Below, one piece after another: positions 6,525 through 25,888 of a stretch of 32,985 nt of DNA (position 1 is its first letter; every line of letters begins with the position of its first letter). The position numbers and the translations under genes were made by a program. Below the pieces are notes generated by a model. The model saw nothing but the letters and a program-made list of their open reading frames with translations, ran no database searches and was not told the origin of the DNA. Origin of the DNA: a virus; IMG/VR virus record IMGVR_UViG_3300035172_000110, positions 1 to 32,985 of that record. The stretch is one strand, 5' to 3'.

Positions 6525-7472
6525 ATGATCGAGCACTGGCCGATCGACACCTCCACCGAAGCAGGCCGCGCTGCATGGCTGGCACGTCGGAAGGCTTATC
6601 TGAATGGATCGACCATCGGCGCACTGTTCGGCGTCCATCCTTGGCAGACCGTCGGGGGTGTCCATGCCGAGAAGTGCGGCCTGGAGATGCCCGGTCCCGA
6701 TCCCGAGTCCAGCGTCGTTCGCCGCGGCAATGCGCTCGAAACCGTGGTGGCGGCCGAAGTTGGCAAGCTGCGGCCCGAATGGAAAATCGTCAAGGCAAAT
6801 GAGTTTTTGTACGATCAGAAGGCGCGATTAGCAGTCACACCCGATTTCTTCATCGAGGGCGACCCGCGCGGCCGCGGCGTGTTGCAGACCAAAACGATCG
6901 GCTCGTACCGGTTCAAGAAAGAGTGGCTCGGCGAAGACAGCGAGCCGACGCCGCCGCTGTGGATCATCCTGCAGAACGCGACCGAAGTGATGCTCGCGGA
7001 CGCCGCTTTCGGCGTCGTCGGCGTGCTGGTCATCGGCGATTATACGTTCGATGCGCACGTGATCGAGGTGCTGCGCCTCAAGAGTGTGGAGCACAAAATC
7101 CGCGTCGCCGTGCATAGCTTCTGGCAGGCGCTCGACGCCGGCCAAGTGCCGACCGTCGACTACGAGCGCGACGGCGATCTTCTCAAGCTGATGTATCCGA
7201 CCGAAGTCGCAGGCAAAGTGGTCGATCTGCGCGGCGACAACCGCATTGTCGAGCTGTGCGAAATCCGCGAACGCAATGCTGCGATGATCGCAGTGGCCGA
7301 GAAGGCCAAGAAGGCCGCCGAGACTGAAATGCGCGAGAAGCTCGGCGATGCTGAGATCGCGATGGTGCAGGGGTGGCGCGTCACGTTGAAAACCACGCAC
7401 CGACCGGAGGTCGTGCAGAAGGCGGTCGATTACCGCGTGCTGCGAACCAGCAGGATCGAGGAGGACGCATGA
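6525..7472 (+). CDS. YqaJ-type viral exonuclease
   Basis: This predicts 315 residues. The lambda-exonuclease/YqaJ pattern is clear: WLARRKAYLNGSTIGALFG at 18-36, then VVRRGNALETVV with E72, VTPDFFIEG with D107, and LQTKT with Q121 and K123, matching the E...D...(E/Q)xK active site. It should resect duplex ends to give 3' single strands for the RecT annealase two genes downstream, forming a two-component recombination system. The last 80 residues form a charged coiled coil. It is the first gene of the plus-strand operon. The ribosome site is weak (GACGAG). It ends in an ATGA overlap with the next gene. Confidence 0.88.
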   Translation: MIEHWPIDTSTEAGRAAWLARRKAYLNGSTIGALFGVHPWQTVGGVHAEKCGLEMPGPDPESSVVRRGNALETVVAAEVGKLRPEWKIVKANEFLYDQKARLAVTPDFFIEGDPRGRGVLQTKTIGSYRFKKEWLGEDSEPTPPLWIILQNATEVMLADAAFGVVGVLVIGDYTFDAHVIEVLRLKSVEHKIRVAVHSFWQALDAGQVPTVDYERDGDLLKLMYPTEVAGKVVDLRGDNRIVELCEIRERNAAMIAVAEKAKKAAETEMREKLGDAEIAMVQGWRVTLKTTHRPEVVQKAVDYRVLRTSRIEEDA

Positions 7473-23671: not shown

Positions 23672-24223
23672 TTACGGAAAGACATTCGAGATCGCGGCGA
23701 ACGCCGCATCGATTTCGGCCTTCGTGGTGATGGTGCCGCCGTTGATGCCGTTCAACGTGGTGCTCTCGCAGGTAAAGCAAGCCTGCACGAAGGTCGCAAT
23801 CTCCTGCAGGACATGCGCGAGCTGCGTCTCGTTGAGCTGGGTGAAGGTGCCGTCAGCCAGCTTCCAGTCGGTGATGTGGCCGGGATTGGCCACCGCATAA
23901 TCATGCGCGCTGCCGACCGTGTTGCGCGCCACTGGATCGGTAAAGTACGGCTGGCCCGCGATCGTCACGCCACCGCTGGCATGGTTGTAGCGCACATAGG
24001 CCGCGTAGGCGGCCAGATCGACGAACAGGCTGTAGGGCGTCAGCACCTCTTGCAGCGCGGCGTTTGTCTGGTTTCCCGCGCCGTCGCTCGGCCACACCGT
24101 CGCGACATTTCTCTGGGTCCACGCCACATAATCAGGGTCATTCGTGTCGGAAACAATCTGCTTGGCGCTTCCGTACACCCGCCCATCGTCGGCGAGCCAG
24201 AAATGGTCGAACGGATAGGTCAT
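23672..24223 (-). CDS. DUF4376 tail protein
   Basis: This predicts 183 residues from ATG 24223 (ATGA overlap with the fibre gene upstream). The DUF4376 pattern fills residues 70-165: [20 protein letters not shown], then [36 protein letters not shown] and [18 protein letters not shown]. Such domains occur at the ends of tail-fibre or fibre-assembly proteins. A fibre chaperone or adaptor role is likely. Confidence 0.78.
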
Positions 24224-25245
24224 GAGTATTGTCCTCCGGTGTTTGTCACTCCGGCAATGGTGCCCGGCAGGTAAGTAATGCCGGCACCGGCCGTGTTGAT
24301 AACCCCATTCAACTGAGCGAGATATCGCGTGCCGGTTATGTTTGCCTTGCCGCTCATCGTCGAATAAACCAATTGCGCCGCGCCGGAGGCGTCCGCCTCG
24401 GCAAAGTAAGTGATCGCCTGCGCCGCCGGAATGATCAGCGTCGGCTTTGGAATGCCGCCGGTGTATACCCACGATCCGTTTTGGGCCACGACATGCCGCA
24501 TCCCGTTTCCGCAGATGCGGACGCTGCCGGAAATACTTATCGAACCTTGCGAGGCGTACATATGCGCGTCGGAGCAATTGCCGAACTCGTTAACATTCCA
24601 AATAATGACAGTGGAGCCGGGTGTTGCCCACACGCCGGCTCCTGGCTCGTCGCCCATATTGGTGTCGCTTTCGTAGCGAAAGCCTTGGAGCGCATATGGG
24701 CCGCTGCTGGTCTGAATTGCCGAGCCCTGGTTCGCGTGAATGACGCAATTGGCGGGCACCGAGGTGTTGCCGATCAGGTAGATTGTTCCGGTCCCGTTGA
24801 TCGCCGGCAACACGGTCCTGCCATACACGCCATCGGCCACATTTATGGTGACGCTGAAGCCATTGAGATTGTAGAACGACGCCTGATTGGCCGCTCTCTG
24901 GATGGTCTTGAAAGCCGACGTCGGCGTCAGGCCGTTGTTACTGTCATTGCCTGTTGCGGTGTTGACGTAATAGGTCTTTGGCGCGTTCAGCTTCGTCGAG
25001 TTGAAAATTCCGAAGATCGCCTTTAGCAACTGCGTCAGGTCGGTGTTGGCCGGCGGCTGACAAAGCGCATTCGCAAAATCAGAAAAGCCGTTGTCGGCGG
25101 CGTACTTGATCACCGCGACGATCTCGCGCTGATCGAATTCGATGCCCTCGGCCGGCGGGATCGAGCCCTCAATCCCCACTGCCGTGTTGCCATTCACGTA
25201 GGCCGCATTCGTATCGGTTACCCCGAAAGGTTGGTTGTAGCGAAT
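24220..25245 (-). CDS. Beta-helix tail fibre or spike, probable ATT start
   Basis: With the predicted start this has 341 residues. Residues 17-60 (IPPAEGIEFDQREIVAVIKY) are a typical phage fibre N-terminus. Residues 85-330 have features of a right-handed beta-helix, starting TYYVNTATGNDSNNGLTPTS-FKTIQRA as in pectate-lyase-like phage spikes. AGGAGG lies five bases before an ATT at 25245, where the frame reads IRYNQPFGVTDTNAAYVNGN, like the normal start of this fibre family. The next usual start is GTG 25197, which has no ribosome site and would lose the conserved N-terminus. The GIY-YIG gene lies directly upstream. Confidence 0.75.
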   Translation of the reverse strand: MRYNQPFGVTDTNAAYVNGNTAVGIEGSIPPAEGIEFDQREIVAVIKYAADNGFSDFANALCQPPANTDLTQLLKAIFGIFNSTKLNAPKTYYVNTATGNDSNNGLTPTSAFKTIQRAANQASFYNLNGFSVTINVADGVYGRTVLPAINGTGTIYLIGNTSVPANCVIHANQGSAIQTSSGPYALQGFRYESDTNMGDEPGAGVWATPGSTVIIWNVNEFGNCSDAHMYASQGSISISGSVRICGNGMRHVVAQNGSWVYTGGIPKPTLIIPAAQAITYFAEADASGAAQLVYSTMSGKANITGTRYLAQLNGVINTAGAGITYLPGTIAGVTNTGGQYS

Positions 25246-25246
25246 T

Positions 25247-25888
25247 TTAGCCTCCTATTTGACCGGAGCGCCGCTTGATCCAGCCAATCTTGGCTCCATC
25301 GCTGCGACGTTGCTTCACCAATGGATCAACGGAAATCTGCCCCAACTTTGCTCTGAACTCAGAATCCGCCCATCGCTTTTTTGCCGCATCACTTTTCGCT
25401 TTTGACTTATGGCGCGCCGCATCGGAAAACGTCTTCCTGTATTCAGGACGCGACCAGACGAGTTTCATTCGCTTAGATTGTTCGGCGATCAGTTTCGGAT
25501 CGCTCCAAGTCTGTCGATTTGTTTCGATTATTTTCGCTCGTTGCTCTGCCGATAGGCGATGGCCTCTGCTGGCCCCCTCTCCACCGCTCCAATAATTCCA
25601 AAGCTGGCCTTGCGGCGCGGTAGCAATTTCCGCAATTTCGCGCTGATAAGCTTCCTGATCAGTCAATTGATCAGCGATAACGACTTCTTGAATCTCAGCA
25701 CCGCTGAGCCATGCTTTAGTCAATCGATTGTAAAAATGAGATGCACGAACAGTTTCCCCGACAGCACGCCGACGCGCAATGCTTCTGACGAGTCGCATGT
25801 GAGCACGCACACGCGTCGTCGATCCCTTACCGACATATCGAACGATGCCGTCCACCACGATGTTGTAAACGTATGCGCGTTTCATCAT
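25247..25888 (-). CDS. GIY-YIG homing endonuclease
   Basis: This predicts 213 residues starting at ATG 25888, in ATGA overlap with the baseplate gene. Residues 5-95 form a GIY-YIG domain: YVYNIVVDGIVRYVGKG, then TTRVRAHMR, followed by a helix with QEVVIADQLTDQEAYQREI, where E is the likely metal ligand. LSAEQRAKI, a NUMOD-like DNA-binding helix, and a lysine-rich repeat region follow. It is free-standing, not intron-borne, and sits between baseplate and fibre genes. It probably cuts phages lacking it and spreads by repair of the break. Confidence 0.85.
   Translation of the reverse strand: MMKRAYVYNIVVDGIVRYVGKGSTTRVRAHMRLVRSIARRRAVGETVRASHFYNRLTKAWLSGAEIQEVVIADQLTDQEAYQREIAEIATAPQGQLWNYWSGGEGASRGHRLSAEQRAKIIETNRQTWSDPKLIAEQSKRMKLVWSRPEYRKTFSDAARHKSKAKSDAAKKRWADSEFRAKLGQISVDPLVKQRRSDGAKIGWIKRRSGQIGG

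Follow-up and report, generated by a model that had tools for sequence, protein, structure and literature searches.

The stretch of DNA analysed here, referred to as the window, comprises 32,985 nucleotides of a soil phage contig from IMG/VR, and on its minus strand the genes follow the order of a Mu-like baseplate and tail-fibre operon, with the fibre gene downstream of a homologue of Mu gp48. The gp48-family baseplate gene P0001 (25885..26685, minus strand, 266 codons) was recognised by Pfam family PF10076 with E=4.4e-21. In the sequence ATGATGA its stop codon overlaps the ATG of P0002 (25247..25888, minus strand, 213 codons), a GIY-YIG homing-endonuclease-like gene whose domain matched PF22945 with E=8.1e-7 and 29.6 bits, above the curated cut-off of 27, and which carries the residues conserved in an alignment of seven. 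The TAA of this gene (25249-25247) ends one base before a putative ATT (AUU) start codon at 25243..25245, from which the tail-fibre gene (24220..25245, minus strand, 341 codons counted from ATT) reads IRYNQPFG, with the conserved N-terminus IRYNQPFGVTDTNAAYVNGN; the minus-strand junction reads ...CGGTCAAATAGGAGGCTAAA ATT CGC TAC AAC CAA CCT TTC GGG GTA. The Shine-Dalgarno (SD) sequence AGGAGG (25251..25256, minus strand) is separated from the ATT by the five-nucleotide spacer CTAAA. Both are part of a recurrent initiation block, CAAATAGGAGGCTAAAATT (25243..25261, minus strand), whose consensus over other loci is CAAATAGGAGGC-N4-ATT, as given by the base frequencies of 21 distinct ATT/ATC loci. 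An in-frame TAG (25255..25257, minus strand) lies 12 nt upstream of the ATT with only GAG GCT AAA in between, and the first in-frame NTG of the fibre is a GTG at 25195..25197 (minus strand).

An earlier note on this DNA had proposed the ATT as the start of the fibre gene, with AGGAGG five bases before it, the endonuclease gene ending immediately before it, and the GTG 16 codons after it as a fallback lacking a ribosome site. All of these placements were reproduced, and no SD-like sequence was seen before the GTG. In four places of the window GGAGG and an ATH codon are followed by a frame open for 60 codons or more, and the spacings at the three besides the fibre start are 8, 3 and 8 nt; GGAGG at a spacing of 5 before ATH and a long open frame thus occurs within the window at the fibre start only. 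The junction was found again, letter for letter, in four other IMG/VR contigs with other metagenome numbers (L003, L004, L005 and L006), three of which are identical to the window across the whole 4.5-7.7 kb overlap. A random sequencing error is therefore unlikely and is not supported as the origin of the ATT. Judged by their sequences, the four contigs and the window look like one viral population rather than independent events. Note that L006 keeps the junction of the window while its fibre departs internally (residues 1-292 matched in 832 nt), apparently by a length change.

To locate the start by comparison we used a sample of 80 loci that were found via gp48 and not via the fibre, the only sample wholly free of any SD condition and also free of a spacing condition. 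It gave 44 distinct starts (36 ATG, 4 TTG, 3 ATT and 1 GTG) with a pattern that misses fibres with another N-terminus. The related fibres after gp48 begin M-x-Y-N/E-Q-P-Y/F-G, with ATG in most loci, and in the alignment of these loci the ATT of the window stands exactly at the position of the relatives' ATG. That the residues from the ATT form the normal beginning of the family, as had been claimed, is confirmed by this alignment, in which the ATT coincides with ATG, GTG or TTG of the relatives. In the window fibre, AUU thus occupies the start position shared with relatives, no canonical start lies in frame upstream of it, and a strong SD is suitably spaced, as is characteristic of naturally AUU-initiated genes. 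An in-frame stop lies 12-21 nt upstream of the start in 15 of 21 distinct ATT/ATC loci, and no in-frame NTG intervenes between the upstream stop and the ATT or ATC in 20 of the 21. Where the TAG is found 12 nt upstream, the start is confined to GAG-GCN-NNN-ATT, and within these codons ATT is the sole near-cognate codon at a proper distance from the SD. From these sequences we infer initiation of the fibre gene at AUU.

We further studied how often this arrangement recurs. A start-agnostic scan of viral contigs for GGAGGC at a spacing of 5 followed by the fibre N-terminus, with any start codon allowed, returned 40 contigs, 30 with ATT, 9 with TTG, 1 with ATC and none with ATG. A second scan, for ATT, ATC or ATA starts with any GAGG 2-12 nt upstream, left the spacing and the following base free and yielded 35 contigs, of which 34 held real fibres (33 ATT, 1 ATC, 0 ATA). 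GGAGG was located at exactly 5 nt in all 34, and the base 3' of it was T instead of C in three. The combination of SD and ATT is thus more than chance. The position of the ATT start stood as proposed; the ATT is not a private accident of this phage but a recurrent allele. After removal of L251, L252, L256 and L241 as chance matches, GGAGG at 5 nt was counted among 149 distinct starts in 24/24 ATT, 1/1 ATC, 9/9 TTG, 0/106 ATG and 0/9 GTG; note that the ATT set was partly gathered with GGAGG patterns, although the gp48-anchored and spacing-free scans carry no spacing condition. AUU or AUC accounts for 25 of the 149 distinct starts in this collection, which is enriched by the GGAGG patterns, and for 3 of 44 in the gp48-anchored sample. 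In total the family holds 24 distinct AUU sequences and two with AUC, that is, the 25 AUU/AUC rows and the ATC locus L100. One set of loci among the collected fibres had at least 120 entries, and its counts are those of a sample. Every one of the 149 distinct fibre starts has a gp48 match (tblastn, E<=1e-4) before it, at most 150 nt away in 129.

The ATG starts have weaker sites, usually GAGG, at variable spacing. As evidenced by SD-antiSD energies in the gp48-anchored sample, pairing is stronger at non-ATG starts (n=8) than at ATG starts (n=36, median -7.0; p=9e-6), and local RNA structure is slightly weaker at ATT/ATC than at ATG (median -10.6 versus -11.6 kcal/mol, p=0.04). Just upstream of the SD, at -16 to -11, the ATT/ATC loci share the bases CAAATA, which favours the transfer of a block.

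A single ancestral ATT clade is not supported, as the 25 AUU/AUC rows required 23 label changes on a gp48 tree (146 rows) and 22 on a tree of the fibre N-terminus (147 rows), the exact numbers being soft with at most 25 such rows, a quick method and a short fibre alignment. Either a short block would move between phages or the change would recur, and both are compatible with the trees. Every ATT or ATC example is a viral contig derived from a metagenome. Among 265 genomes of the genus Bradyrhizobium no ATT or ATC fibre start was found, the 12 matches being judged chance by their sequences and by control counts, and 397 genomes of the order of Bradyrhizobium likewise gave none. Among 10 matches in genome contigs from 84,980 species, L260, with a TTG start, was the single one recognised as a true relative; it belongs to Bradyrhizobium erythrophlei GAS478 and is the sole relative recognised in a cultured organism. 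L260 and L026 share the sequence from -25 to +60 with the GGAGGCCGAT site, and L026 has an HNH gene there. Bradyrhizobium erythrophlei GAS478 would allow the block to be studied in a cultured host. Annotated phages and plasmids contained distant relatives only.

The junction between gp48 and the fibre is occupied by endonuclease genes of two types, GIY-YIG (PF22945 in the window) and HNH (PF01844/PF14279 in L055 and L026). GIY-YIG genes are present at this one site in several loci and absent in most. As in the window, the endonuclease begins at an ATG overlapping the gp48 stop in L088, L092, L108 and L128, and in L015, L061 and L084 it is the fibre itself that starts at such an ATG. In the gp48-anchored sample, non-ATG starts were found in 5 of 5 loci with an endonuclease or a remnant, versus 3 of 39 without (Fisher p=5e-5). 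When the sample was anchored on the endonuclease instead, with two weak HNH hits (L106, L107) and a truncated locus (L076) left out of the count, 11 of 12 distinct loci with a following fibre were non-ATG: seven ATT (the window, L055, L060 with a remnant, L088, L089, L090, and L102 with a fragment), one ATC (L100), two TTG (L026, L050) and one GTG (L092, without a clear SD). The ATG locus is L091, where a GIY-YIG gene precedes a fibre with a weaker SD.

Among the 24 distinct ATT loci, eight have an apparently whole endonuclease directly upstream (L003, which stands for the window, L055, L088, L089, L090, L108, L128 and L141) and five have remnants (L060, L264, L116, L138 and L102). The remnants are HNH-like in L116, where part of the C-terminal half is left, and in L060 and L264, which keep the N-terminal part; of a GIY-YIG-like protein, L138 retains just the residues at the two ends. 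Note that the HNH identity of L108, L141 and the remnants is based on a reading of residues and not on a family search. No recognisable endonuclease was found in the other 11 of the 24, nor in the ATC locus L133. The earlier suggestion that the insertion may have altered the start is supported in the association of endonuclease and start; an insertion that must remain in place to act is rejected as the cause, given these 11 loci. The comparison with endonuclease-free relatives that the note had called for was divided: 36 of 39 such loci in the gp48-anchored sample have ATG, yet those 11 ATT loci show no recognisable endonuclease either.

Several loci depart from this scheme. L133 has an open frame of about 36 codons with a hydrophobic stretch in place of the endonuclease, 126 nt before its ATC, and in L051, L065 and L158, which retain ATG, another small gene (MAIVNITCENDADF...) separates the fibre from gp48. 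In L102 and L126 a second fibre copy with ATG and a short GIY-YIG fragment lie between gp48 and the ATT fibre. L262 has tandem fibre paralogues, with 1391 nt inserted between gp48 and the fibre at 6777; in the first paralogue the frame reads EAPIRYV..., with an ATT-like position after GAG GCT CCG, and both copies may start at ATT.

Two near-isogenic pairs of contigs differ in the start codon. From the start codon on, L116 (ATT, with an HNH-like remnant) and its ATG counterpart L211 have 2 differences in 3206 positions, one of them at the codon's third base, and the 3.0 kb leading to the end of gp48 are 98.1% identical. In the second pair, L060 (ATT, likewise with an HNH-like remnant) and L155 (ATG), identity upstream is 99.2% over 2.7 kb, and 4 of the 2932 positions from the start codon on are mismatched, again including its third base. 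Around the fibre start the differences in both pairs extend only from the end of gp48 through this third base: several mismatches fall within the final 20-30 bases of gp48, and the intergenic tract differs over its entire length. Within each pair both fibre frames are intact and equally long, with 437 and 437 codons in one and 378 and 378 in the other. In both, the ATG/ATT switch coincides with a decayed HNH-like gene and not with a GIY-YIG gene. Co-conversion of flanking sequence has been described for homing of the T4 type (PMC2988022), and the pattern in the pairs is the one expected from co-conversion during homing, the start codon marking its right-hand edge and the direction of the change being unpolarised.

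On this basis we propose that the fibre is translated from the AUU at 25245, which initiator tRNA would decode with the aid of a perfect SD at the fixed spacing of 5 nt, and that AUU and SD would be the right-hand end of a replacement tract arriving with a GIY-YIG or HNH homing endonuclease gene. The endonuclease gene would take over the former initiation site of the fibre at the gp48 junction, and the fibre would be re-equipped with AGGAGGC-N4-AUU from the tract. With later decay or deletion of the endonuclease the block would be left as a scar, and the fibre would keep using AUU. A strong SD with a weak codon would then substitute for a weak SD with AUG, so that initiation can stay in a workable range. 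The position of the ATT, the fixed spacing, the selection on the downstream codons described below, the near-isogenic pairs and the endonuclease remnants are observations; transfer by homing and a similar net initiation rate are what they suggest. We consider the reading as a whole, an AUU-started fibre whose block was brought by an endonuclease and outlives it as a scar, to be probable. Delivery by an endonuclease is suggested most directly by the loci with such a gene or remnant and would be conjectural for the 11 ATT loci without a recognisable one, and for L133.

Those 11 loci are in line with a different explanation, in which the ATT is a true start that arose by ordinary compensation between SD and start codon, with endonucleases merely inserting before loci that already have the block. 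The TTG starts, with GGAGG at 5 nt in 9 of 9, also fit it, and in prokaryotes non-AUG starts accompany stronger SDs, GUG and UUG being balanced in this way (PMC5622118). Nevertheless, compensation leaves unaccounted for the association of endonucleases with non-ATG starts in the gp48-anchored sample, the remnants in ATT loci without a whole endonuclease, the coincidence of the switch with an HNH-like remnant in both near-isogenic pairs, and the common bases beyond the SD, and we regard it as unlikely.

The remaining explanations deny a functional AUU start. GTG is a usual start codon and in the window the first NTG in frame, and the AGGAGG-ATT could be a fossil upstream of it, or of another NTG. 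However, codons 3-8 show a pN/pS of 0.16 in the 21 ATT/ATC loci, close to 0.18 in 9 TTG and 0.18 in 106 ATG loci, and both wrong frames of the same codons are without a pattern of purifying selection, which indicates that the residues right after the ATT belong to the translated, conserved part of the protein. Starting at the GTG, which has no SD before it, would remove this conserved N-terminus. Moreover, the first in-frame NTG downstream is scattered from codon 3 to 69 across the 21 distinct loci, whereas the spacing between SD and ATT is fixed in 34 of 34, and initiation at the GTG is in our view very improbable. We give equally little credit to production of the fibre as a fusion to the upstream gene product, through frameshifting or stop readthrough stimulated by AGGAGG. 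Internal SD-like sequences can indeed stimulate frameshifting, but the upstream frame varies by locus (gp48, GIY-YIG or HNH), the distance from the gp48 stop to the ATT is 15, 17 or 18 nt, which puts that stop in different frames, and no common slippery site was noticed in an unsystematic inspection. That the ATT alleles belong to decaying genes whose start codon was lost is hardly credible, in spite of the weakness of AUU elsewhere (in S. aureus reporters in poor medium, AUU and AUA yielded about 10% of the AUG level; PMC13009471), given long intact frames under purifying selection, 99.9% identity to ATG sisters over 2.9-3.2 kb and 24 distinct ATT sequences. By analogy with those reporters, reduced expression from the AUU fibre start would be expected.

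Within the proposed delivery of the block by endonucleases, the use of AUU instead of AUG would have one of two reasons. Either AUG behind so strong an SD would be too much, as none of the 106 ATG starts has such an SD, or AUG would be avoided as part of the cut site, as 11 of the 12 endonuclease-anchored loci have one of four other codons in its place (ATT, ATC, TTG and GTG). L091, with its endonuclease and ATG, speaks against strict avoidance of AUG, and L092, with an endonuclease and GTG but no clear SD, against a pure rule of expression. A possible elaboration, which we put forward tentatively and with more doubt than conviction, is that the start codon is a mark of immunity: ATG would belong to the endonuclease target, the ATT, ATC, TTG or GTG would be the uncuttable replacement, and the perfect SD would be there so that a needed fibre survives. 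If this were true, the ATT scar would persist, once the endonuclease was gone, as an allele resistant to it, and mobile endonucleases would be a natural engine that turns AUG genes into AUU genes.

Among known systems, pcnB of E. coli is an AUU-initiated gene. The same start is found in infC of E. coli, encoding IF3 and controlled by it (PMC5472188), and in cvfC1 of S. aureus, where cvfC1, ccpN and infC have a strong or extended SD (PMC13009471). The window fibre resembles infC, pcnB and cvfC1 in its AUU start, and the S. aureus genes in its strong SD, but it differs from them in being a phage structural gene, one allele among ATG, GTG and TTG, and linked to endonucleases. By analogy with infC, control of the AUU fibre start by IF3 is possible. 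In gene 26 of T4, Nivinskas et al. reportedly described an internal AUU start of a baseplate gene product. Initiation at AUU in a baseplate and tail operon of a phage, here predicted, is common to both, although in T4 it is an internal second start and here the main one, and we know of no endonuclease link in that case. The free-standing homing endonucleases of the T-even phages (seg, mob) are encoded outside introns and move with co-converted flanks (PMC2988022). The endonuclease gene of the window, known here from its sequence, likewise lies outside introns; unlike in seg and mob, the tract would include the ribosome site and start codon of the next gene and leave a non-ATG start. An ancestral reconstruction counted 1 AUG-to-AUU switch among 61,358 ancestral AUG starts (PMC5622118), and relative to that work the fibre family carries the general SD compensation of GUG and UUG over to AUU. 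In the titles and abstract openings listed by our literature searches we found no description of AUU starts of phage fibres linked to an endonuclease.

Only a few genes are known to start with AUU, a codon that gene finders usually ignore, and AUU-start fibres may be annotated with a truncated N-terminus. The contigs described here provide natural ATG/ATT allele pairs in near-identical phages, with homing endonucleases as a plausible switching agent, and make the fibre family a ready system for measuring how SD strength buys back a weak start codon. They suggest that the insertion of an endonuclease can remodel the site at which translation of the adjacent gene begins.
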